From: Cerioporus squamosus
Taxonomy: Eukaryota > Basidiomycota > Agaricomycetes > Polyporales > Polyporaceae
Assembly (NCBI GenBank): GCA_022592435.1
Contig: JABYQS010000052.1
Span: forward strand, 152,734 to 216,733
Direction of reading: 5' to 3'
Length of the DNA: 64,000 nucleotides
The stretch's first letter is position 1. Each line of letters begins with the position of its first letter. A program made the translations under genes and the position numbers. The notes beneath the pieces were generated by a model. It ran no database searches. It had not been told where the DNA came from and was given only the letters and a program-made list of their open reading frames with translations. Below are positions 2,957-63,992 of the stretch, piece after piece.

Positions 2957-4693
2957 TCAGTGCTCGCACATATTGAACTCGAGCTCATACACCTTCTCGT
3001 TGTGCTCGACGACAAAGCTCGAGCGCTCCTTCATGAGCTCCGCCCGGTGTTCCTCCGCCTTCTCACGCGACATCACCCCGGGCTTCACGAACTCGGCGAC
3101 GAGATCGAACAGCTCCACAGGCAAGTTCTGCATCGCCGGTGCCTTGACGAGCTCGTCCATTGACCAGTCCTCCTGCTGCGGCGGGACGTGCGTCGTCGAC
3201 AAGATCTCCGTCTCCGGATTCACGAGGAAGAAGCACAGGATCTTCCGGTATCCCGGCTTCGTCGGGTCCGCAAGCTCGAACGCGTCGACGTGGTGCTGGT
3301 AGATGTTCGGGAACGCGACGCACTTGTCCTCCTCCGCGACGATGTGCCCGATGTTCTGGTTCTTGTGGTGGTTGGGCCCGAATCCGTACGAGACGATGAA
3401 CCCGCGGTCGTCGTACTGCTCGTACCGCATCTCGATGCCGTCCTCGGTGCCGACCGTGACGCGGAAGTCGAGCCGCGACTCGGTGATGTTCTCGCACGCG
3501 TAGTAGTACAGGCCCGTCACGACGATGTTCTCGTTTGCCATGCCCTCGACGTGCCACGCGCCCCCGGCGAAGCGCGGGTTCTCCGGCGTGAGGACGATGT
3601 TCGCGAGCTTGACGATCACCTGCACTTTGCGGCCCTTGAGCGAGTACTCGACGCGGTCCTCGAAGGTTGGAGGATGGAAGGGCGCGGGGTCGGGAATGAT
3701 GGGCCATCTGAACTCGTTCGCCCATATGTCGTACGCCTCTTGGTCGTACCACGAGTCCGAATTTCCGGGCACATCGCAGTACCAGAGCTCCGGATCGACT
3801 TGTACAGCCAGCGGACGCTCAGGGGATAGAGCGTCGGACAGCACCCGCTCAAACATGGGTACAAATCGCGCGAGGATGGACGTGATGGGCGTGTAGAGCG
3901 CGGCGTCGCGTGTGGGGTGGAGGTTGTTAATGTATCCGAGCGCCTCCACCTTTCCCGTCTCGGAGACAGCGAAGTCGGTCGGGAGCCACTGGTACTTCTG
4001 GGACATGAGGTAGCGGTGTTCCTCAGAGGAGCTGTTCAAATCTGGGCGGCGCGCTGTGTATGCCTGCGGCGTGATGGCTTCCAGTGGGTCATCATTGCTC
4101 GCGTCCTCCTTGCGAACGTACGACTCGCCGATGACCAGGCAATACAGCGAAGGGTGCACGAGATCTAAGACTTGCTTGTTCGATCCGGGGTGCCAGTCCT
4201 TCTTCTCTTCAGGTACGTTCTCGAGGAGCGCGACGCCGTGAACGAGTGCCTCCTTGGTAGCCGGGGAGATCAGCGACCTTGATTCGTACACATTGGGAAT
4301 AGATGCTGCCTGTGCAAGATTAGTGAGTAGGTTCGCCAGCGCATCAGAAACAGGACTTACGAATATGCCAGTCTCGGGGTCACGTCGGGAGGCCTCGTAT
4401 CTGAGTTCTTCGAAGATGTAGTCGACCTGCGCCTGGGTGATACGTTCGCGGGGCCATCTCTTCTTGCCATTGCCGTGTTTGAGGTACTCGTCGCCGCCCC
4501 ATAACTTCTCGACCAGCGCACGATCCTGTTCGACAATCTCCTGGCGCCACTTCTTGACGATGGTCGGGTCATTGACCTTCTCCCACCAGTCTGGCTTGGA
4601 ACGGATCTTGCCAGATAATAGGCGCATACGGAGCTCGACCAGCGTGTTGGGTTCGCGCTCTTGAAACGTGAATGGCGAAGGGAATCGGGACAT
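2957..4693 (-). CDS. DUF4246 family protein (copy 1)
   Basis: A near-continuous minus-strand frame of about 578 codons that matches the fungal DUF4246 family as I know it, and is plainly paralogous to the gene at 38941-40714. Both share FPSPFxFQxRxPxTLVELRM near the start, LSGKIRSKPxWWEKVND, a central GGAWHVEGMANExIVxTGLYYYA, and EEDKCVAFPNIYQHxVDAFEL with the C-terminus FNMCEH-stop. I take the Met of MSRFPSPF as the start; an upstream Met would add a basic leader absent from the paralogue. Positions 4310-4360 look like a 51-bp intron without a stop codon (GTAAG...ACAG), because the paralogue has an intron at exactly this point; removing it gives about 561 residues. The His/Asp-rich core (HVEG) has been compared with 2-oxoglutarate oxygenase folds, but the function is not established. 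Confidence 0.85.
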   Translation of the reverse strand: MSRFPSPFTFQEREPNTLVELRMRLLSGKIRSKPDWWEKVNDPTIVKKWRQEIVEQDRALVEKLWGGDEYLKHGNGKKRWPRERITQAQVDYIFEELRYEASRRDPETGIFVSPVSDALANLLTNLAQAASIPNVYESRSLISPATKEALVHGVALLENVPEEKKDWHPGSNKQVLDLVHPSLYCLVIGESYVRKEDASNDDPLEAITPQAYTARRPDLNSSSEEHRYLMSQKYQWLPTDFAVSETGKVEALGYINNLHPTRDAALYTPITSILARFVPMFERVLSDALSPERPLAVQVDPELWYCDVPGNSDSWYDQEAYDIWANEFRWPIIPDPAPFHPPTFEDRVEYSLKGRKVQVIVKLANIVLTPENPRFAGGAWHVEGMANENIVVTGLYYYACENITESRLDFRVTVGTEDGIEMRYEQYDDRGFIVSYGFGPNHHKNQNIGHIVAEEDKCVAFPNIYQHHVDAFELADPTKPGYRKILCFFLVNPETEILSTTHVPPQQEDWSMDELVKAPAMQNLPVELFDLVAEFVKPGVMSREKAEEHRAELMKERSSFVVEHNEKVYELEFNMCEH

Positions 4694-5410
4694 GATGGGA
4701 TGTGATCGGCGTGAGGAGTGCTGATATCGGAGGCTCCGCGAGCAAGTTGGTGGTCGACGTGGTCGTTCCAGAGGACCTATATACGACAGCACGGCGAGGG
4801 GCGGTCGGCGGATACGCGATGTCATCGCCTTCCCGGGGTTCCCCGCCTCGCGTTCTCACATCGACACAACACGAGTCTGACGAGACTCGTGTAGACTCAG
4901 TGGCGGACACGCACATGACGGAAACAAGGCTTATCTGATAGGAGATCGGCGAGAATAAGAGTTGTCCTCCATGTATGTGCCAGGAATCTGGTGCAGTCGG
5001 AGATTGCGGAACGTTCTCAATGGAGACATGCGACATGCCCCTGCTTGGGAGGAGGGCGACTCCGACTTCGACTATTGAAAACGCGTTAGCTTGAGCAGTC
5101 CTAATTGTCACAGATAATATACTGGAGCTCCGGACTGCTTTTGAGACTGATTGACACCGGGTAGTATTGCACGTGTGCGGCCGAATGGCCTATTCGACAG
5201 TATAAGACCACTCACCATAGGGAGACTGGTGAGTTCGAAAGGCATGGAAGCAGCCTCGGGAGTCTGTAAAGGTCATTCTAGTCAGACAGCTCTGGTGTAT
5301 GAGCGTATACCCCCGCAAGTCACCCCGTATGATCTGCACATCAACAATTGCTTGCGTGATTCCATACGCGACACCATTTATTGTCGTTTGGGAGAATATG
5401 AGGCGTGACA
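4694..5410. other. Intergenic, no gene recognised
   Basis: About 700 bp holding the promoter of DUF4246 copy 1 and the 3' flank of the F-box gene to the right. I see no motif-bearing open frame. Confidence 0.5.
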
Positions 5411-12134: not shown

Positions 12135-14255
12135 ATGGTTTCTCAGCTCCACCCCACACCAACGGATGGATATGGAACATATACCTCAAGGTTACAGAAA
12201 GAAACAGAAGAGATCATCACGAAGCACATCCCGGTGCAAGGCACAGCTCAAAGTGAACTACAGAAGAAGGCGCACTTCGAGTTTCTCCTGCGGAATCTGA
12301 GACAAGGATTCCCCGAGCGCTATACATCTCAGGATGCGAGCCAACCATGGCTCATATACTGGACTCTTCATGGCTTCAGCATCCTCGGTGTCGGGCTTGA
12401 TGATCAGACCAAGAAACGGTGAGTGGTGGAAGCTCTATGCGAGTTCCGCTTATCCATGTTTGATCAGAACCATCGACACGTTGCTGGCGCTGCAACACCC
12501 GGAAGGCGGCTTTGCGGGCGGTCCTGGTCAGGCTGCTCATCTGCTCCCCACTTACGCCGCCGTCTGCTCGTTCGCTATTGTCGGACGCCCTGGAGATGGC
12601 GGAGGCTGGGACGCCATCGATCGGTACGGCGCTGATGCCTCCGGCTCTCTTCTCGGCATATCTCATACTTCGGGGACTTGCACAGGAAGAAGATGTATGA
12701 CTTCTTCATGTCCTTGAAGCAAAGCGATGGGTCTTTCCTCGTCAGTCATCACGGTGAAGTAGACGTCAGGCAAGTGGTTCGCCTCCCCCGTCAATCGGAG
12801 TCTGATCGCTCGGATGCATAGGGGCATCTACTGTCTGCTAGCGGTAGCGACGTTGCTAAACTTGCTCACGCCCGAGCTTCTCGCGGGCGTCCCCGAGTTC
12901 CTAGCCACCTGCCAAACCTACGAAGGCGGGTTCTGTAATGCTTCCTTCCCAGGATGGGCTTTCGAGGCTGGTCAGTTGCACTGTATGACTTCACGTGCGC
13001 ATCGTTCTCAATATGAAACCCAGACGACCCAGAGACCCCGAGTGGCTCACCGAAGAGTTATGACCCCTCGGCGCCGCGTCCGCCGCTCGGTGAGGCGCAC
13101 GGTGGGTACACGTTCTGCGCCACCGCCTCCTGGGTCCTCCTGCAACCATACATCAAACTCTACCATTCTTCCGCCGGTGGCTCGTCCCCCAAGCCGGCCA
13201 TCAACACGCCTGCGCTGCTTCGCTGGTGCGTGCAGATGCAGGGATTCCCTATTGAGCTCGGAGGGTTCAAGGGCCGGACGAACAAGCTCGTGGATGGGTG
13301 CTACAGCTGGTGGGTCGGCGGTTGCGTCGTTCTGGCCGAGACACTTCTAGGCGTCGCGCGTGTGCACGAGGCCGTGCCGCATGAGCCTCATGAAGAGAAC
13401 GACGAAGACGGACAGAAGGCGTGGGACGATGCTGACGGTAAGCGGCTGACTGCTCGACTCGCGCGCACTGTGCTGAAAACATCAAATGCATCTCTCCTCG
13501 GACCTGGATGATCGGTGCCCACTCCATTTGTCCGCTGAACACTATTCGTAGATGCCCTGTTCAACCGCAAGGCGCTGCAGGAATACATCCTCTGCGCCGG
13601 GCAACACCCTGCCGGCGGCCTGAGAGACAAGCCGCCCAAGTAAGTCTTCCTCCGAGCGCCCACACACCCTCCGCACGCCCGGAAACGCATGCTGACGTCC
13701 TGATCCTCCAGGCCCGCGGACGCGTACCACACGCTTTACTGCACGGCGGGCCTATCGGCCGCTCAGCATCGCGTCATCCCTTCCGAGGCGCGCGAGAAGG
13801 CTGTTATTTCCGCCTGGAACCCGTCCCAGGCCGATGCCAAAGCCGGTATGTTTTCCCTCTCCTGCTGCGCGGTCACCCACCCCGTTTGTGGGTTCCGCAG
13901 GAGCATGTGCTGAGGAATCCCCGCGCCCAGGCACAGCGTATGCTCCGTTGTCGGACGCAGACCGTGAGAGGCTGGACGACTTGCGCAAGGGCACCTTCGC
14001 ACAAGCCATGTCCTGGTCCGAGGAGGAGGGCACGGCTGTGTACGTCGGCGGCGCAGCCAATCGTGTGGTGAGTCGCAGCGGTCCTCGTGCGGGCGACGGA
14101 TTGAAGGCTGACCGTGGTTCTTTTTCCCGACCGGTGGATAGAACGCTACCCACCCGTTGTTCAACCTGACGGCAACCCACTCGGACGGGATGCTGTCCTA
14201 CTTCTACGGCCAGACTCCGCCGTCGCGATATGTGAACAAACCGGCAACCAAGTGA
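12135..14255 (+). CDS. RAM1: Protein farnesyltransferase subunit beta
   Basis: Exons joined by several short introns give a full-length prenyltransferase beta subunit. Exon 1 contains HFEFLLRNLRQGFPERY and WTLHGFSILGV. Internal alpha-alpha repeats include ALQHPEGGFAGGPGQ, then HHGEVDVR. Next come LGEAHGGYTFCATASW and GGFKGRTNKLVDGCYSWW. The Asp and Cys of DGCYSWW and the His of DAYHTLYC correspond to the zinc ligands of the family, and the GGFKGRTNKL basic patch to the isoprenoid diphosphate-binding residues. The C-terminal exon holds NATHPLFNLTATHSDGML and ends KPATK-stop. With the alpha subunit (not in this window) the enzyme attaches farnesyl to CaaX cysteines of Ras, fungal lipopeptide pheromones and similar proteins. 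The neighbouring tRNA is unrelated. Confidence 0.92.
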
Positions 14256-32762: not shown

Positions 32763-32768
32763 TATAAA
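32763..32768 (+). promoter_or_regulatory. TATA box of repeat-peptide gene
   Basis: TATAAA lies 46-51 bp upstream of the ATG at 32814, a tight spacing typical of short, strongly transcribed fungal genes with small leaders. Confidence 0.55.
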
Positions 32769-32813: not shown

Positions 32814-33464
32814 ATGAAGTACTCCGGACTCCTCACTTCACTCGTTGTCAGCATCCTCGTCTTCGTCGGCGAGGTGCGTTGGCTTCTCTTTTTCTTCCAT
32901 GCCGTCGCAAACGATTCTGCCTCCCGCCGCTATGCTCGTTATTTCTGCAGCAGCACGCTGATCCATATTGATACTAGGAAGCCGCCGTGGCAGGCGCACC
33001 CATGACCATAGCCGAACCTGTATACAAACGCGCCTTGTGCACCGGGGGAAGTGCTTCCTGCCCGGACTGGAAGCGGCAGGACGGGGGACTCGGGCAGGTA
33101 CGTCAGCTCGACATGCCGCACAAGGAGACTTCTCACTCGCACTTACCCTTCGGCAGGAAATCGCGCCCGCCGTCGGGGCTGGTGAGAAGCGACAGGACGG
33201 CGGACTAGGCCAGGTATGTCGCCTTACTCGTGTATGACAGTGGGATCGCATCTCCAATGACTGTCAAACAGGAAACTGTGCCGCTTGACGCCAATGGCAA
33301 GAGGGAGTTTTGCACCGGGAACGGTGCTTCCTGCGCGGACTGGAAGCGGCAGGACGGTGGACTCGGGCAGGTATGCTAGCCCAACCATTGATTGGGACCA
33401 CCTCCAAATTGTGATGCTTTGGCAGGAGACTGTACCTACTGGTGGCGCTGGCGAGAAGCGTTAG
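32814..33464 (+). CDS. Candidate Kex2-processed secreted repeat-peptide precursor
   Basis: Five phase-0 exons (32814-32873, 32978-33097, 33157-33213, 33272-33370, 33426-33464) give about 124 residues. A signal peptide (MKYSGLLTSLVVSILVFVG, cleavage probably near AVAG-AP) is followed by Lys-Arg dibasic sites at regular intervals. Cleavage after each KR would release a 13-residue Cys peptide twice (ALCTGGSASCPDW and EFCTGNGASCADW). It would also release a Gln-starting peptide three times (QDGGLGQEIAPAVGAGE, QDGGLGQETVPLDANG, QDGGLGQETVPTGGAGE). Exons 2, 3 and 4 all end exactly at GLGQ and the next exon always starts with Glu. This fits the fungal Kex2-processed repeat protein (KEP) class, which includes peptide signals, repellents and RiPP precursors. 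No matching modification enzyme is seen nearby. I do not recognise a named family. Confidence 0.8.
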
Positions 33465-35927: not shown

Positions 35928-36381
35928 TCAAAGGGTCACGGGGACACATCCGATGGAGATGAGCGATCCTGTGGCAACGCGAGATGGGTGAGTATCCTGC
36001 TCCTCTGCAGAACGGAACAACTGATGTCAGGTCAAGACTTACCGTGCGAGTTGTCCTCGCAGCAGACAGCCTGCGCATCACTGTGTTACAGGTGAGCGAA
36101 CCGTCTTCTCCGTGAGATCATAGAAGCGCGACGTACCAGGCGTCTCCAGAGCCGACGCCGATGACGGTGATGGGGGAGCAGGTGAGACCCACGAGGGCGT
36201 CAACATCCTGCACGACGACCCCGATGGACTTCAGGATGCCCGCCGCAGCGGGGTCGCTGGCCTTCGCGGTGGACTGGCAGCACTGGATGGTGCCGGTGCT
36301 GCAGCTCGCGTCCGGAGCGGGCGCGGGGGTGGCGACGGCAAGGATTGCAAGGGACGCAACAGAGAGGAGAGTGGAGAACAT
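35928..36381 (-). CDS. Class I hydrophobin (hydrophobin 1)
   Basis: Three exons (36137-36381, 36043-36080, 35928-35968) give 107 residues. A signal peptide MFSTLLSVASLAILAVATPA precedes the hydrophobin cysteine pattern. C1 is in SCSTG, C2-C3 in IQCCQS, and C4 in GLTCSPITV. C5 is split by intron 1 (DAC-DAQ), C6-C7 are in AVCCEDNSH, and C8 is in SIGCVPVTL. All eight cysteines are present with the class I spacing (long C3-C4 loop). The protein is secreted and self-assembles at air-water interfaces to coat hyphae or fruit-body surfaces. Exon 2 (38 nt) and exon 3 (41 nt) have the same lengths as in hydrophobin 2 at 55147-55610, and the nucleotide similarity is high, so these are recent duplicates. 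A TATA-like ATATATAA lies near 36477-36484. Confidence 0.93.
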
Positions 36382-36477
36382 GGTCGATTGAGTGGTTGAG
36401 TGGTGTCGATGTAGACTCGGATGCGAGAGCGACTGGTGAGTGCTTGCTGGAGGGACTCTCTGAGAGAACTGACCTGT

Positions 36478-36484
36478 TATATAT
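36478..36484 (-). promoter_or_regulatory. TATA box of hydrophobin 1
   Basis: TATATAA on the minus strand, about 100 bp upstream of the hydrophobin 1 start codon; consistent with a strongly induced fungal gene. Confidence 0.45.
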
Positions 36485-38940
36485 CCCGAGGATAGCTTCC
36501 ATGACGTCGCTGAGAAATACTGGCTGCAACCAACCGTATCATGGACGGACGAAATGCGAACGCACCAGTATGGGAGACCACGGACTGCTGAATGCGGCCC
36601 CACTCTTGACAGGTGGGCGGCGGTGTCAGCCCTCATCCTGCGATGGTCCCTAGTCAGGCGGTATAGGCCGGGTAAGTACTTGTCACCAGGGCTCCACCCG
36701 AACACAAGGGGACCTCCCACTTACAACGTCCGAGAGTCCTCATGTAGGAGGATGAGGCTCAAATCCGCAGCCGCTCCATCCGGTGCGCAACTAAGCCGTT
36801 CATTGTCGCTCGCGCTGCTACGTTTTCGACAGCGTGAGGGCAACAGCCGCGTCCGGGAGTTCATAGACTGGGAACCGTACTTGTGCGTCAGCTCTCGGTC
36901 CCGCTCCTCCGCGAGCCTAACGTATACTCTAAACGTTTGTAGTCTACCTGTCCACTGTCGAAACTCGAACTTACAGGTCGGCATCGCAGGACACGCCGCT
37001 GCCCGCACTACCTGCGCTATGACGTACTGGGTGTCTTGTGTCCCGGGGTATAGCTGAACGTACGTTATCCTGGCATTGTGTGGGCTCCTGTGGTCAGACG
37101 GCTTGCGCTCACCATCACCATGCAGGAGAGTGTATTGCTCCACTCTATTTCGGCATACACGAGGAGGTCGTGGGGCGTGCGCGCGCGGTACGTACCCACA
37201 GTCATCTCCGTCATAACTGGGGTGATGGCCGCCGTGTATGCGAGCCGTCTCCGAGGGCAGCTTGGAAAAAACGAGGGTTTCTATGAAGTCATCTCGAAGA
37301 AGGTACTTATCCTCGTCTTTGTTCTGCAGATGTTACAGCTTACGGCGAAGACCGCGCGCTCTTGTGGCGACAGACCCGAACCGAACTCTCGTTCTTCAAA
37401 GCTACCGGGGTCCTTTCCCAGTGCCGCAAAACCTGTGCTCACATTCACATAGCTTGCGAGGCCGTCCATCCTGTAGAGCGGGCTTCGACCGAGTCAACTT
37501 CTTCTCCTACCTTGTGCAATGTAGGTCATAGGATGCGTACTCTAATTATACTAGTTGAGAACATGCGTCCAGACCAGATGGGTTCTCGTTATGCAAACAT
37601 TGACAAGCATCGCAGTCCGGAAGCTGGACCAGCTTGAGCATGTCCTCGGTAGCAGCTCGGTTGTCCGTGGGGTGCTAAATATGGCAACCTAAGCGCCGTT
37701 TCGGACGACTCCGCGAAGAGAACTCGAAGAGAGTTGCACTTCGACTTTCACCTCGATGTTCCTCCTTCTCCTCTCATCATAGCTTACTCACTCCGACGTC
37801 TGCTTCCCGCCTATTCAATGCAACGGACCTCCGAAATATCCATCTTCTCCTGTGAACTGGTGACCTACAAGACTTCCCCGGAGCAACATGCGCGATTCCA
37901 TGGCAGTACTACCCATGGTCACCTCCGTCGACAAGGACCCGCTGCTACGTTGCGCACAGTGGGCTGCATGTATGACTTTGTTGGAGCCAGGAACCGCAGT
38001 AGGGAGTAGGAGAGGCATTTGGTGACCGGTGAGTGCTCGCTCAAGCAGAGATATTGCACTCCCTCCCCCGTGGAACATGTACAGGCGTTCAATTTGACTA
38101 CATATTGAGTTCTTGAGAAACTGGGCCTCCGACCGTTACCATCTGTGACGCAGGAGAGTTCATGTCGCTACCTCTGGGAGTGTGCTTATGACGGCGAACA
38201 AGCTGGAGGCATGTACTTGCGGTCAGTAGCCTGTTCTTTGTGCCGAGGAGGTCGTCCAGCGTGGCGTCGGCTTCGCGATGCAGGCTTCTCCGGATGTCGT
38301 ACATCTCGTCGTCCCTAAGCATTATGCACGTTCGTTAGTGTCCCAGGACATATGTCGACGTCGCTATTTCCCCTGCTTGTTCCACTCTCGCATTTGCTTT
38401 CGATGCAAGCAGAGCTACTCTGGTGTCCGCTCCCGTCGTATCCGAGTCCATGCACTCCTTGTTGTGTCTGAAAATGATCCCGGTGGTCTCTGTAAGACCT
38501 GTCGGGCGCTGGAGTATTCAGTACATATCGGATCGCCGTAGACCTGAGCGAACCAGAGTGAACACGTATCATTCATAGCCTCTGACTCCCTCCACAACAG
38601 CGCGGGATCGGTGTTCTATGGGCGAGATGGGAACATTTCTCAAGCTCTCTACCGCTGCTACAGCGGGCTGAAGCCGTCCGACGTCCCCGGAACGCTCAAA
38701 ATTTGTCCTGCATTGACTCGTGTTGCAAACTCGCAAGACCGGATTAAAGTACGGTGCTTATCTGGTAAGTATTTGCGACTAGTCTGGTCATAGTTCGATC
38801 TAACACTTGCACAGCCTCGTGTCAAGAACTTCCGGCGACAAGGTCAGGCACAGGAACCTCCGCTCGGTCCTATAAGTACTGTTGACGTTGACATCCGGTC
38901 AGCATGCTCCTCACATCCTCCCCCGGCTCATCGTGCAACA
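36485..38940. other. Intergenic, no gene recognised
   Basis: About 2.5 kb between hydrophobin 1 and DUF4246 copy 2, whose starts diverge. The frame at 37078-37452 has a hydrophobic stretch (VPTVISVITGVMAAVYASRL) that could be a membrane-protein fragment, but no family or flanking exon is recognisable. The last 100 bp should hold the DUF4246 promoter. Confidence 0.4.
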
Positions 38941-40714
38941 ATGGCAGCCAGTAAAAAATCATACCACTTTCCATCGCCATTCAGGTTCCAGAGGCGCGAC
39001 CCTTGCACCCTTGTTGAGCTTCGCATGCACTACCTCTCCGGCAAGATACGCTCAAAGCCAAACTGGTGGGAGAAAGTCAACGATGCAGCCCTTGTTGCGA
39101 AGTGGCAGCAGGAGATGGTTGACCAAGATCGGGCAGCAGTAGAGGCGGTCTGGGGCCTCGAAGAGCGACTCCCGCACCGATACACGACAAAGCACTGGCC
39201 GCGAGACCTGATCACCGACGCTCAGCTCGACTATATCTTCGACGAGCTGCGATATGTCGCCAGTCGTCGCGACGAGCTGACAGGCATCTATGTGGGTTGA
39301 TATCGCGTCTTGCCGGTGTAGTGAAGTGTTTAACGCGGTGTTGCAGGCGGCTGCCATCCCGAAGGTGTACGAGTCGCGCTCGCTCATGCCGGCAGACTTG
39401 AAGAGCGCTCTGCTGTGCGGTGCCGACCTCCTTGAGTCCGTCCCCGACGAGGAGAAGGACTGGCACCCGGGCTCAAATGGCCAGGTGCTTGACCTCGTGC
39501 ACCCGTCTCTCTACTGCCTCCGCATCGGCTCTTCCTATGTCTACGCCCAAGACGACACGGAGCCTCATGCTCGAGCGCTTCGCGTGCTCACCGAAGAAGA
39601 GTACAGGAAGGACCGCCCGGATTTCCTCACGTACGACTACGAGACCTTCGCGCACTCGGCGAAGTACCAGTGGCTTCCGACCGACTTCGAGACCCCCGGC
39701 GCCGGGGTCGCATGGCCCCTTTCCTATATCAACAATCTACACCCCATCAAGCACCGTGACCTCTACCCGACGATATCCTCCATCCTGGGACGCTTCGTAC
39801 CCCTCTTCGAGCGCGTCCTGTCCGATGTCATACGCCCTGAGCCGGACGGCGTGATCAAGGCCGATCCCCGGACTTGGTACGACCATCTAGAAGAGCCAGA
39901 ATTTGAGGACGACGACGACGATGAAGAAGGGATAGAAGAGTGGGAGGAGACCTACAAGTGGCCGCTGATCCCGGAACCGCCCCCGTTCCAGCCACCACGC
40001 GACGACGGCGTCCCGCGGCTCTCGATGACGGACCTAGGGTCCACCATCCAGGTTATCGTCAAGATGGCAAGCATCGTGCTCACGCCCGAGCAGCCGCGCT
40101 ACGCGGGCGGAGCGTGGCACGTCGAGGGCATGGCGAACGAGCGCATCGTCGCGACGGGGCTATACTACTACGCGTGCGAGAACATCACCGAGTCGTGGCT
40201 CGACTTCCGGATCACCGCGGGCACGGAGCACGGGTACGACATGCCGTACCAGCAGAGCGACCACCAGGGATACCTCGCGGCGTACGGCTTCGCGGGCGGG
40301 GACCCGCTGAACCAGCCGCTGGGGCACATCGTCGCGGAGGAAGACAAGTGCGTCGCGTTTCCGAACATCTACCAGCATCGCGTCGACGCGTTCGAGCTTG
40401 CGGATCCGTCGAGGCCGGGGTACAGGAAAATTCTGTGCTTCTTCCTGGTGAATCCCACGACGCGTATCGTGTCCACAAGCGACGTCCCGCCGCAGCAGGA
40501 GGAGTGGGTGCGCGAGGATGCCGCCGACATGGCGGAACTGCGGACGCTCCCAAGGGAGCTGCAAGACATCGTGATGCGCTACGCGCGGGTGGGCACGATC
40601 TCGCGCGGGGAGGCGGTGAGGGACCGCGAGGAGCTCATGAAGGAGCGGGCGAGCTTCGTGATGGAGCATAACGAGCAGGTGTTCGAGACGAAGTTCAACA
40701 TGTGCGAGCACTGA
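38941..40714 (+). CDS. DUF4246 family protein (copy 2)
   Basis: Two exons (38941-39291 and 39347-40714; intron 39292-39346, 55 bp) give about 572 residues. The start MAASKKSYHFPSPFRFQRRD matches copy 1 from FPSPF onward. Shared blocks are LSGKIRSKPNWWEKVNDAAL, AAIPKVYESRSLMPADLKSA, DWHPGSNGQVLDLVHPSLYC, GGAWHVEGMANERIVATGLY and EEDKCVAFPNIYQHRVDAFE, and the C-terminus FNMCEH-stop is identical. Copy 2 has an acidic insertion (FEDDDDDEEGIEEWEE) not found in copy 1. The intron lies exactly where copy 1 has its stopless intron. Function not established; a 2-oxoglutarate-oxygenase-like core is possible. The two copies lie on opposite strands 34 kb apart. Confidence 0.9.
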
Positions 40715-46130: not shown

Positions 46131-47746
46131 CAGTGACGGACAAAAATATTGCCCGCCCCCAGTGGCAGGCATTGAATCCCCCTTAGCTCAAGCTCAGATA
46201 AGCTTGAGCATATGTCATATACTGTAGAATAACTGGACATTAGTTATCTATCATACAGTGCCTATGATGTTGCTGGGTGGCTGCGTGAAAGGCTGCAAAA
46301 GCCGTGGGAACGTTTGGGCGCTTATTTTCGACGTGCCAGCGCACAGTGTCCTGTCCTTTTCTTTTCCTCAGTACACATCACATTTAATCCCTGACACTAC
46401 ACCACTTTAATATCTTCATTCTACACCTTCTACTCTTTACGTCTATCACTATGGCACCCTGCACTCCCACCAAACGGGCTCGCATGCTCCAACTTCGCGA
46501 CCCTGCTTTTGGGAAGCCCAAGACCATGACGGAAATCGGCCGCATCTTGCACCTGGATCGTCGCACAGTTGCCCGGAACCTCAAGATTGTTCAGGAGACC
46601 GGTGACTTCTACTACCATGCTCCCCGGCCTGGCCGGCCCCGTCTTCTCACTCCCCGCGACCTTCGTCGTGCTGAAGTGGCCCTTGCCAATGGGTCAGCTC
46701 GGGATGCAACCGACGTCCAACGCCAGCTCTTCCCCAACGTCAGTGCCCGAACTGTGCGTCGTAGGCTTTGCGAGATTGGGCTCAACGGACGGGTACGTCG
46801 GTCAAAGCCGTATCTCAGCTCCTTCCACATCAAGCAGCGGAAGAAGTGGGCAGAGGAGTTTGCGGATTGGAGTGTGGAGGATTGGGAACCAGTGCTCTTC
46901 TCAGATGAGTCTCAGTTCAATCTCTTTGGCTCAGATGGGAGGCAATGGTGTCGGAGAAGGGTTGGGGAGGAGTTTTTGCCGAGGAATGTCAAGCAGCGGG
47001 TCAAGCATGGAGGAGGGAGTTTGATGGTGTGGGGGTGCATCACCTCCCGGGGCGTTGGGCGTCTTCATTGCATCAAGGGGAAGCTGGATTCCAAGCAGTA
47101 CTGTTCCATCTTGAAGCAGTCACTCCTAGGAACCCTCAAAGACCATCACATCCCCCGAGACAGCTTCATCTTCCAACACGATAACGACCCCAAGCACACC
47201 GCACACCTTACGAAGGAGTGGTTGCATGAACACAACATCCCTGTTCTCCCCTGGCCCTCGAGCTCTCCTGACATGAACATCATCGAACATGTCTGGGATG
47301 AGTTAGATCGCCGTGTCCGCCGTCGCAACCCTCTTCCTCGAAACCTCAAGGAGCTATGGGATGCCTTGCAACAGGAGTGGTACGGACTGGAGAAGGACTT
47401 CATTGCCAAGCTTTATCATTCACTCCCTGACCGTGTACGGGCCCTTAGAGAGGCCAAAGGTGGACATACACGTTACTGAGTTGTTTGTTCATGTTTACCA
47501 GTTTACCAGTATTTTATACCACGGTCATTACCCTTTGTGCGCTTACCCATAACCCCAGTCATGTACTTGTTACTTAAATAACTCAGGCATCACTGGGCCA
47601 AATTGCATCGTTCCTTCACTCAGTCATGCAGAATGGGAAGGCCTATAATTCACAAAAGAAAGCAAGTACATATGTCTAATATTGACAAAGTTACGGGGAG
47701 AATATAGTGCATGGCCTGGGGCGGGCATTATTTTTGTCTGTCACTG
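46131..47746 (+). mobile_element. Tc1/mariner (DD34E) DNA transposon, complete
   Basis: A 1616-bp element flanked by TA at 46129-46130 and 47747-47748, the expected target-site duplication. Terminal inverted repeats of about 29 bp begin CAGTGACGGACAAAAATATT on the left; the right end read in reverse is CAGTGACAGACAAAAATAAT, with two mismatches within the TIR. One uninterrupted transposase frame lies inside. Everything needed for a mobile copy is present. Confidence 0.93.
46451..47479 (+). CDS. Tc1/mariner transposase
   Basis: An intronless 342-residue frame with no internal stop. The N-terminus holds helix-turn-helix DNA-binding segments (PKTMTEIGRILHLDRRTVAR and SARTVRRRLCEIGLNGRVRR) separated by an AT-hook-like GRPRLLTP. 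The catalytic triad is visible: D in LFSDESQFNLFG, D in FQHDNDPKHTA, and E in SSPDMNIIEHVWDELD. There are exactly 34 residues between the second D and the E, so this is a DD34E Tc1-type enzyme. It cuts and pastes its own element at TA sites in the nucleus. Complete catalytic residues and intact TIRs suggest recent activity. Confidence 0.95.
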   Translation: MAPCTPTKRARMLQLRDPAFGKPKTMTEIGRILHLDRRTVARNLKIVQETGDFYYHAPRPGRPRLLTPRDLRRAEVALANGSARDATDVQRQLFPNVSARTVRRRLCEIGLNGRVRRSKPYLSSFHIKQRKKWAEEFADWSVEDWEPVLFSDESQFNLFGSDGRQWCRRRVGEEFLPRNVKQRVKHGGGSLMVWGCITSRGVGRLHCIKGKLDSKQYCSILKQSLLGTLKDHHIPRDSFIFQHDNDPKHTAHLTKEWLHEHNIPVLPWPSSSPDMNIIEHVWDELDRRVRRRNPLPRNLKELWDALQQEWYGLEKDFIAKLYHSLPDRVRALREAKGGHTRY

Positions 47747-60381: not shown

Positions 60382-63300
60382 CTCCCCCTCAACTCGTCAT
60401 CCGACAAAATGCCGAGTTGCTTCCTCAGATAATGGAAATGCTCGTGCGGTAGCGCCTTCGTGAACAAGTCCGCAATGTTGTCATTTGTCGGGACATATTT
60501 GAGTGCGATAGTCCTGGCCTCGACACACTCCCAAATGAAATGGTGCCTCATGTCGATGTGCGTGTGTTGGACGTTGTCCTTCGACAGTGCAATTGCTGAC
60601 AGGTTGTCCGCGTTTAGACATGTTGCCTGCTCTTGATCGAAAGTGAGCTCGCTTAGGAGCATGCACATCCAGATGGCATGCCTGGCTGCGTAGTGTCGCG
60701 GCGACTAGGCGCGTAGACACCAGACGTCGATCGGCGACGGTCTGAGGGGCGAGCAGCGAGGAGCCGAAAGGGAGATAGAGAGAGAGAGAACTCGACGGGG
60801 GCAGAGCAACGACCAGCTCGAAGGCACGAAGTCGTCGATAGCTAGTCTTCATGCGCACTGCGACAGACTAGTCCCAATGACCAAGGTATATGGGGGAAAA
60901 GCGCACCTAGTCCCAATGACCAAGAGGTCGAGATGGGGACTAGGTAAGTGCTGGGAGGGGTTTATATACTGGTCTACTCAGAACAATCACGTGCCAGTGG
61001 AAGTGACTCATGCGGGAAAGGGAGCAAGGCTGTACAAGTGGGAGACAAAAGGGTGGGAAAACACATGGTAACAGGATGGTAAGTGCGAGAACAAAGCATG
61101 CGGTCGTGGGAACAGAGCATACGGGTGCGAGAACAAGATGAAGGAGTCTGAAGTGGGGTGTGTATGAAGTAGGAAAGGGGTTGAGATGGGAAACTGGAAC
61201 TTCCAGGGAAGATGAAAAGGGTGCTGGTCCACTGACCGTGACACGTAGGACACCGCCATGTACTCCGCTTCGGTTGAGGATAGTGCGACAACTACCTGTT
61301 TCTTGGAGCTCCACGTGACGAGTCCACTACCAATTAAGAACACGTAGCCTGAGATCGACTTGCGGTCTACAGGGTTTGCTCCCCAATCCGCATCTGTGTA
61401 TCCTTCCAAGCGGAAATCTCATAGAACGCCCGCGCGCTCGGCTCCCCCTTACGCCCATAGGTTATCCCGTAGTCCAGCAACCCCTTGAGGTAGCGAAACA
61501 TGCATTTTACTGCGGTCCAGTGAGCCGGGCCAGGGTGCGAGGCAAACTGTGACAGCGTCTGGACTGCGTAGCTGATATCTGGGCGTGTCCCGAGTGCCGC
61601 GTACAACAACGTCCCGATGGCCGCCTGATATGGGATGTCCTTCATCTCCGAAAGGTCAGCGTCCTCTGGCTCCTTGAGGAGCTTGACGTTCGGGTCCATG
61701 GGCATGCTGACCGGTGCGCAATCGGACATTCCATAGCGCTTGAGTGCTGACAAGATGTATTGTCTCTGTCTGATCGTGATGGTGGATGCCTGCTCATCCA
61801 TCGCAACCTCGAAACCAAGCAGCAGACGTGGTTTGCCAAGGCTAGTGATGTCATAGTGCTGCTGGAGTTGCTTCTCGAAGTCGTCCATCAGTCCTGTCAT
61901 GTCCGCGCCGCCAAGCATGTCATCTACATGGATGCCAAAGACAATCATCTCTCCACGGACCATCTTGATGTATATGCACAAGTCTGCCGATAGCCGTCGA
62001 AAACTCAGCTTCTCGACCATGGTGGTATTGAAGTGCTGATTCCACATCCAACCACCTGGCTTGAGTCCGTACAGCGCTTTGACGAGCCTGAGAACACATC
62101 CAGATCCGTCGTTGAAACCCGGGGGTTGCCGCATGTATATCTCCTCCTCCACGGGAGCGTTCAAGTACGCGCCGACGACGTCATACTGACGCGCTACCAT
62201 CTTGCGTTCAGCAATAATGGCCAGCAGGACCCGGAGTGAGTCCATTCGCACGACCGATGCGAAAGTCTCGAAGTAGTCCAGGCCTGGGACTTGACTGAAA
62301 TCTTGAGCCACGAGCCGGGCCTTGTACCTGACGATCCTCCCTTCCGAATTGCGCTTGAGCCTGTACACCCATCTGCAGCCGATCGGGTGCCTCCCTGCAG
62401 GTAAGTCCGTCGCTTCAAAAGTACCGAGTTTCTGAAGTTGAGAGTATTCAGCCTCCATTGCAGCCTGCCAGTCAGGCCACTCTGGTTGAGCTTGTGCCTC
62501 CTTGAGGTTCTGTGGCTCTGAGACACTCTCTGTGCCATGCAGGGTCAGCAAACACAAGACATGCACCTCCTCGTACGGGACCTTCTCTCTGGTCTCGTGG
62601 AGTGCCTTGTAGTTGATCCGTGCAGCCGCCTTCTGCTTCTCCCGCTTCGGTGCCTCGTCCCTGGATGGCTGTGCTCCTCCTGGTCCTGGTGCCTCCTCAA
62701 AATCCTCCGCCCATCCTCTGCTCGTCCCTGAGCGCTGATCTGACGGTGTTATCTGCCCGCCTTGTGCCTCTGCGCCACTGACACTCTCCGCCGCTCGTCT
62801 CTCCTGCGTCCCTGCACCACTGTCACTCTCTGGTGCCCGTGCGCTGCTATTCTCCCCCTCGAGCGGCTGAGAGGGAAGCTCAATGTACTCATAGTCATCC
62901 TCGTCCTGTTGTACGGTTCGTTTAGGGACTGCGAACATGATGTTGCATGACTTTCCAACACGCCAAGCAACCGGGTCGTAGTACCGCCAGGCCTTGCTGC
63001 CGTCGGCTACCTCCATAAAGAACATGGGTTTTGATTTGGGGTCAAGCTTGGTCCGATATTCCGGAGAGGTCAGAACCCAGCACCGGGAGCCCCACTCTTG
63101 TAGGTTCAAGACATCAGGCTTCTGTCCGGTCCACACTTCGTCCGGTTCTTGTCCTTCAGTGCACGAGTGGGCAGTCAGTTCTTCAGATAGAGGATGTGCC
63201 ACAGCTTCGGGCCACAAGAACTTCAGCATCTTCATCGCGATCATGATCGTACGTACGCGCTCCATGACTGTCCGGCAAGTACATTCTGCAATTCCGTTCT

Positions 63301-63992
63301 GCGCAGAGGACTTTGGTGCGGTTGTGTCCAGTTCAATGCCCTTGGCCTGTAGATAGGCGGTGAACTCGTCATTGATGAACTCGCCGCCGTTGTCACAGCG
63401 GATCTTCTTGAGCTTCACACCGAACTTGTTCTCGACATACGCCTTTAGTCCTTGAAATGCCCGAAGGCCTCGTATTTGTGCTTGCCGAACGCACGTCTAG
63501 ATCACCGCCCCTTTCCGTCTGTGAACGCCCACCAATACCGCTCTCCCCAAATTCCCACCGTCGACGCTGGCCCCCACGTATCCATCACTGTCATCTCCCC
63601 GATCTCCGTGAACTCCGTCTCCGACTTCTTCGGTATGACGCCACCGTCTGCTTGCCCTGTACGCATGCCTCGCATTGGTCCATTGGAGGCTCCGACTCGT
63701 CGACCTCCATGCCTGTTACAAGGCCCTTCTTGTACATGGCGATGATGGCTTTCATGCCCGGGTGACCTAGGATGCAATGCCATTGATGATAAGTCGGCTT
63801 CCATCTCGGGCGACATACCGCTGTCGCGTACGATCTCTCGGTTGTCGAGATCTCCGCGTGTCTGTCCATCTCGTAGAGGTAATTGCCGATGCGCTTCCCA
63901 ATTGCGTACGCGCGTCCCTTCGCGTTCTTGAAGCAGATCCGACTGCCACCGAGCTTGACGAGGTGCCTGCTTGCCTCGACGCATTCGACTGA
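60369..63992 (-). pseudogene. Copia polyprotein (degenerate)
   Basis: From the right, the pieces read as follows. The GAG-pre-integrase zinc segment is WHCILGHPGMKAI ... CEACVQGKQTV (63591-63869). The integrase start is EIGEMTVMDTWGPAS in another frame. The integrase core and RT (61367-63418) include IRCDNGGEF, SSAQNGIAECT, KARLVAQDFSQVPGLDYFET, VVGAYLNAPVEEEIYMRQPP and IHVDDMLGGADMTG (usually YVDD in copia). RNase H begins GYTDADWGANPVDRKSISGY in a shifted frame near 61400 and runs to STEAEYMAVSY. There the LTR insertion cuts it; it resumes after 60693 with LLSELTFDQEQATCLNADNL and ends at 60369. At least two or three frameshifts plus the insertion show it is inactive. Confidence 0.85.
60694..61243 (-). 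mobile_element. Solo LTR, family X, copy 2, inside copia RNase H
   Basis: A 550-bp LTR, minus orientation, similar throughout to copy 1 at 59128-59715. It is flanked by the 5-bp duplication CGTAG (60689-60693 and 61244-61248). Removing it with one duplication restores the RNase H frame between MAVSY and the following ARHAIWMCMLLSELT. It inserted after the copia element did. Confidence 0.92.

Follow-up and report, generated by a model that had tools for sequence, protein, structure and literature searches.

Kex2-processed repeat proteins (KEPs) are precursor proteins that combine a secretion signal with repeats bounded by dibasic sites (PMC6339444, PMC7329392, PMC9769878). In all, 7878 of them have been reported from 1345 of 1461 strains, with an average of about five precursors per strain in basidiomycetes (PMC7329392). 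The detection pipelines require three or more repeats (PMC6339444, PMC7329392), which in PMC7329392 must also have at least 8 residues each. Trp-ended products have been detected by mass spectrometry in shiitake (SGTGEASAADW) and in oyster mushrooms ([M/L]SGVAADW), and their shared -AADW end has been stressed (PMC9769878); a conserved XSDW motif reported in Basidiomycota (PMC6339444) may overlap DW cores such as those described here. KEP functions are characterized as largely unknown (PMC9769878). The gene analyzed here is a real KEP-type gene, found once in its genome and ordinary in kind. As a locus found once, with disulfide-ready, Trp-ended peptides, it gives exact masses for peptidomics and can be used to examine whether the mushroom KEP peptides that end in Trp constitute one family. 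A first-pass annotation had called it new, which holds in part: we found no published description of its pair of cores, but the gene is already annotated as a hypothetical protein and its class is published. In the literature searched (without supplements), QDGGLGQ and, of the cores, CTGNGASC (core 2) only were used as queries and gave no occurrence, and none of the paper titles listed concerned KEPs of C. squamosus.

The gene lies at positions 32814–33464 (+ strand) of the window, the whole 64,000-nucleotide stretch of Cerioporus squamosus DNA under analysis. We set the exon borders by hand from the span given in the first-pass annotation and then checked them by script. Joining and translating the five exons yielded a 124-residue protein; the spliced frame has 124 codons plus a stop codon, and all four introns (104, 59, 58 and 55 nt) have GT...AG ends and lie in phase 0. 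The protein and the nr record P0001, 'hypothetical protein C8T65DRAFT_779878 [Cerioporus squamosus]', have the same sequence from end to end, and the public annotation therefore uses the same splicing, with the four introns given in the first-pass annotation. A TATA box-like element (TATAAA; 32763–32768, + strand), located by string matching 51 nt 5′ of the start codon, might be functional. The precursor locus was the sole DNA match in the 54-Mb genome (1 match in the paralogue search), and the five matches from the protein paralogue search were all inside the precursor gene itself.

The precursor has the layout MKYSGLLTSLVVSILVFVGEEAAVAGAPMTIAEPVYKR / ALCTGGSASCPDWKR / QDGGLGQEIAPAVGAGEKR / QDGGLGQETVPLDANGKR / EFCTGNGASCADWKR / QDGGLGQETVPTGGAGEKR-stop, distributed over the five + strand exons as follows. 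Exon 1 (32814–32873) carries the start codon and a hydrophobic, signal-peptide-like N-terminus, in which the hydrophobic stretch comprises residues 5–19, the most hydrophobic 12-residue windows begin at residues 5–8, and inspection by eye indicated a possible AVA/G cleavage site. Exon 2 (32978–33097) encodes a pro-region ending in VYKR (KR site 1, 33026–33031), core peptide 1 (ALCTGGSASCPDW; 33032–33070), KR site 2 (DWKR; 33071–33076) and the first QDGGLGQ unit (33077–33097), which runs on in exon 3 (33157–33213) as EIAPAVGAGE, followed by KR site 3 (33187–33192) and QDGGLGQ unit 2 (33193–33213). Exon 4 (33272–33370) contains ETVPLDANG, KR site 4 (33299–33304), core peptide 2 (EFCTGNGASCADW; 33305–33343), KR site 5 (33344–33349) and QDGGLGQ unit 3 (33350–33370), and exon 5 (33426–33464) contains ETVPTGGAGE, a terminal KR (33456–33461) and the stop codon. 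The six KR dipeptides, starting at residues 37, 52, 71, 89, 104 and 123, account for 6 of the 7 lysines and 6 of the 6 arginines of the whole precursor, and a KR count of six was reached in none of 100,000 residue shuffles. KR 1–5 are cleavable, as had been claimed; we added the sixth, which forms the last two residues directly before the stop codon. The units between the sites, two 13-residue Cys cores and three QDGGLGQE units, were likewise present as described. The regular alternation attributed to them stood only as repetition and not as strict alternation, since the units follow one another in the order C-Q-Q-C-Q, with KR spacings of 15, 19, 18, 15 and 19 residues.

Protein searches retrieved one relative with a Cys core, P0002 (E 8.5e-6), a 93-residue metagenomic fragment from an ENA contig of 546 bases. 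It begins with MVGAPTAVAEPVYKRGCTGSQNCADWKRQDGGLGQ and lacks the N-terminus and first exon; after the MVGAPTAVAEPVYKRGCTGSQNCADWKRQDGGLGQ part it appears to run into an intron. The matching part retains AEPVYKR, both Cys residues, DWKR and QDGGLGQ, with altered residues in the core and the pro-region, and its Cys spacing is C-x5-C versus C-x6-C in the C. squamosus cores. Conservation of the KR sites among relatives, named beforehand as a check, could be followed in P0002 alone, where the two KR sites of the matching part are conserved in a fragment without an N-terminus. The other 58 residues, given in one frame and probably partly intronic, contain no KR and no QDGGLGQ, so that judged from its sequence P0002 leaves the remainder of the precursor layout without confirmation. 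These searches depend on shared 5-residue words, which distant relatives can escape, and one of them scored the 7996 candidates sharing most words. A profile of P0001 plus part of P0002 retrieved the same two proteins only, and Pfam and PDB sequence searches with the precursor protein gave no match.

Repeats bounded by KR/RR/KK/RK sites, by which KEPs are recognized, are present here as six KR sites with repeated units between them. The three-repeat threshold is reached by the QDGGLGQ unit only, the Cys core having two copies by our own count. The genome contains one match to a Kex2-type P_proprotein, from two scored candidates. We consider it highly probable that the gene is a KEP whose product is processed by Kex2 and Kex1 into two cystine-bridged, Trp-ended peptides acting extracellularly, with the Gln peptides as spacers. 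The precursor would enter the secretory pathway, Kex2 in the Golgi would cut after the five internal KR sites, and Kex1 would trim the C-terminal KR. The two 13-residue peptides ALCTGGSASCPDW and EFCTGNGASCADW released in this way would each probably have one C-x6-C disulfide and a free C-terminal Trp, with predicted MH+ values of 1265.49 and 1358.48, respectively, in the disulfide form. The three QDGGLGQE... peptides would be released as well, most likely as spacers, their N-terminal Gln cyclizing to pyroglutamate, with predicted masses (MH+) of 1551.73, 1553.71 and 1555.69 in the pyroglutamate form. The designation 'secreted Kex2-type repeat precursor' is well supported by the anatomy. The analysis shows the gene, its splicing as in the public record, the repeats, the KR sites and their partial conservation in P0002; cleavage, disulfide, pyroglutamate, secretion and function are what we infer.

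The assignment of product and spacer could also be the reverse. Three pyroGlu-Asp-Gly-Gly-Leu-Gly-Gln-Glu... peptides would then be the active product, and the Cys peptides a second product or a spacer. This is possible because the QDGGLGQ protein sequence is identical in all three copies and in P0002; the Gln copies also number three versus two Cys copies, and pyroglutamyl KEP peptides have been detected in C. cinerea (PMC9769878). However, the half that follows QDGGLGQ is variable (EIAPAVGAGE, ETVPLDANG and ETVPTGGAGE), and the conserved stretch stops at the exon border, so its conservation may in part serve splicing. Moreover, the published Trp-ended mushroom peptides resemble the Cys core unit and not the Gln unit. 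We regard the Gln peptides as unlikely to be the active product and retain the Cys-Trp peptides in that place.

The two core copies are joined by a 78-nt direct repeat with 85% identity. Across the segment made up of core, KR and QDGGLGQ, 22 codons in length, comparison of the copies revealed 16 identical codons, 5 nonsynonymous differences and 1 synonymous difference; the five residue changes are all within the core and leave the Cys residues, DW, KR and QDGGLGQ untouched. Introns 2, 3 and 4 each follow directly after QDGGLGQ, at the same codon border of the repeat, and their interiors are no more alike than shuffles, the shares of shuffles reaching at least the observed score being 0.657 (introns 2 and 3), 0.507 (2 and 4) and 0.11 (3 and 4). 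Similar coding repeats with dissimilar introns are consistent with either selection for the peptide layout or gene conversion confined to the exons. Since silent changes between the copies are few, selection on the protein alone does not fully explain the pattern. In the segment 33097–33426 of the window, the repeats in the exons differ very little, silent sites included, and such exon-limited gene conversion might account for this. As the intron that splits each spacer has the same position and is in phase 0, skipping of exon 3 or exon 4 would alter the number of peptides without a frameshift. A more speculative proposal, which we think rather improbable, is that the gene represents a family of cystine-bridged peptide hormones of polypores, with cores diverging inside a fixed Cys/DW frame and a copy number open to exon skipping. 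The repeat-per-exon layout could reveal how KEP repeats grow.

Among the peptides described previously, that of the Lentinula edodes KEP 2599, SGTGEASAADW (PMC9769878), shares the strings TG, AS and ADW with core 2. A query made of published peptides and some window letters retrieved, among 7996 candidates, P0001, the unrelated P0006, P0003 (Lentinula edodes), P0004 and P0005; units such as SGTNEGSAADWKR, SGTGDSSAADWKR and GGTNPGKGADWKR recur in the last three. Like the C. squamosus precursor, P0003 and P0004 have a hydrophobic N-terminus and short units each ending in ...DWKR. In contrast to it, KEPs of the SGTGEASAADW type (L. edodes, P0003 and P0004) have no Cys and no QDGGLGQ, and their 11-residue cores are arranged head to tail without a spacer. 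P0003 (F5051DRAFT_437315) follows the repeat pattern for three full units and then departs from it, and its gene model may be mis-spliced. The P0002 core equals SGTGEASAADW in length, with Cys at the places of Gly-2 and Ala-8 as aligned by eye; a gapped alignment makes the first Cys an insertion.

We evaluated the likeness of the cores by shuffling, with 27 pairs compared and no correction applied. Against SGTGEASAADW, the shuffle shares for core 1, core 2 and the P0002 core were 0.013, 0.0035 and 0.0050, respectively, with the final W fixed; 0.098, 0.015 and 0.034 with DW fixed; and 0.081, 0.050 and 0.086 with the last three residues (xDW) fixed. Such values also arise without kinship: with DW fixed, QYKAPSW, an unrelated peptide from Coprinopsis, reached 0.034 against core 1. 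Sequence likeness to SGTGEASAADW beyond the DW ending is thus weak. The Pleurotus KEPs that release [M/L]SGVAADW are likewise repeat precursors cut at KR to give ADW peptides with a terminal Trp, but they carry STE13 dipeptides, of which the C. squamosus precursor has none, and their cores are without Cys (PMC9769878). With DW fixed, alignment with the Pleurotus cores was no better than shuffles (0.19 to 0.69), and neither the P0005 cores nor SGVAADW was conspicuous (shares of at least 0.19).

A further resemblance is to the Trichosporon oleaginosus KEP peptide QSWGGCGGRGTPCW (PMC6339444), also from a basidiomycete, which has C-x6-C and a C-terminal Trp as in the C. squamosus cores. It differs in that the Trp comes directly after Cys and that an STE13 signature is present (PMC6339444). 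Core 2 aligned with it at borderline shares (0.093 with W fixed and 0.052 with either DW or xDW fixed), and core 1 and the P0002 core did not align (0.42 to 0.83). Taken together, the weak shares, the QYKAPSW value and the T. oleaginosus value make common descent with the AADW peptides possible without demonstrating it.

The T. oleaginosus peptide has a bearing on function as well. An alpha-pheromone-like signal has been proposed as the role of some basidiomycete KEPs that carry STE13 signatures, and the C-x6-C arrangement, the C-terminal Trp and the borderline alignment of core 2 with QSWGGCGGRGTPCW (PMC6339444) would agree with such a role here. However, the dipeptides after the five internal KR sites are AL, QD, QD, EF and QD, and the XA/XP (STE13) signature is absent after every KR, so that the protein does not belong to the canonical alpha-pheromone precursors. 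Neither core 1 nor the P0002 core aligns with QSWGGCGGRGTPCW, and basidiomycete sexual pheromones are described as a-type (PMC6339444). We therefore find an alpha-pheromone-like role improbable. A search of the genome for STE2 gave no match, but its 14 controls were equally silent, and the result consequently says nothing. The Cys-Trp peptides would most likely act outside the cell, either by signalling to the fungus that makes them or in interaction with other organisms, a functional step to which, taken alone, we give somewhat less than an even chance. A signalling role of KEPs is unproven in C. cinerea too, since knockouts of six KEP genes gave no visible phenotype (PMC9769878).

The features of the precursor are also those of dikaritin (ustiloxin-type) precursors, which have a signal peptide, here apparent from the hydrophobic N-terminus, as well as KR sites and repeats (PMC9769878) and whose cores are cyclized by UstYa-family enzymes. 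The genome does encode UstYa proteins. Of at least 16 matches to UstYa (DUF3328) in a six-frame search without introns that scored a limited number of candidates, none was located on the precursor contig (C468). The window reaches the end of this contig, base 216733, some 30 kb past the precursor gene, which bounds the search on that side. The lack of a UstYa match on the contig disfavors the cyclic RiPP precursor that had been offered as one reading of the gene. The cores are, in addition, without Tyr, and their two Cys residues offer a simple disulfide. A dikaritin-type product is, in our estimation, highly improbable.

We looked for sister genes in several ways. A closely spaced DWKR...DWKR pattern had no match in the genome, using a pattern that had no positive control and is blind to the precursor gene itself, whose copies are 273 nt apart. 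Genome searches with P0005 (E 0.035) and P0004 (E 5.55) led to two loci, neither of which contains two W[KR]R motifs within any 120 residues, and these were rejected as a Cys-less sister gene, of which none was found in the genome. Unspliced KR-rich frames (at least four KR in 90 residues) were absent from the window in a scan that misses spliced genes, including the precursor gene.

A Pfam scan of the neighborhood covered 30 of the 59 long stop-to-stop frames of the window, and a modifying enzyme could be hidden in the other frames or in intron-split genes. A partial hydrophobin ORF (36121–36720, − strand; profile positions 1–53 of 79) lies downstream, at a distance of about 2.7 kb from the precursor gene. 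This neighbor would suit peptides that coat the hyphal surface like the Rep1 repellents of Ustilago maydis; Rep1 is a precursor that is processed by Kex2 and lacks an STE13 signature (PMC6339444). The peptides are, however, short and few, and the adjacency of the hydrophobin may be a coincidence; a surface coat is very unlikely, and extracellular action of the Cys-Trp peptides is the reading that we keep. The matches above cut-off in the 30 frames further included a sugar transporter, a phospholipase D motif, a spermidine synthase and DUF4246 genes in two places of the window (2960–4855, − strand, and 38794–40711, + strand). A prenyltransferase toroid domain scored just above the cut-off (26.8 versus 26.5 bits; 12763–13347, + strand) and could be a protein-prenylation subunit; the precursor, some 19 kb from this ORF, has no C-terminal CaaX box. 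Further downstream lie a transposase ORF (HTH_Tnp_Tc3_2 and DDE_3; 46388–47476, + strand) and, close to where the contig ends, an ORF for a reverse transcriptase (RVT_2; 61370–63496, − strand).
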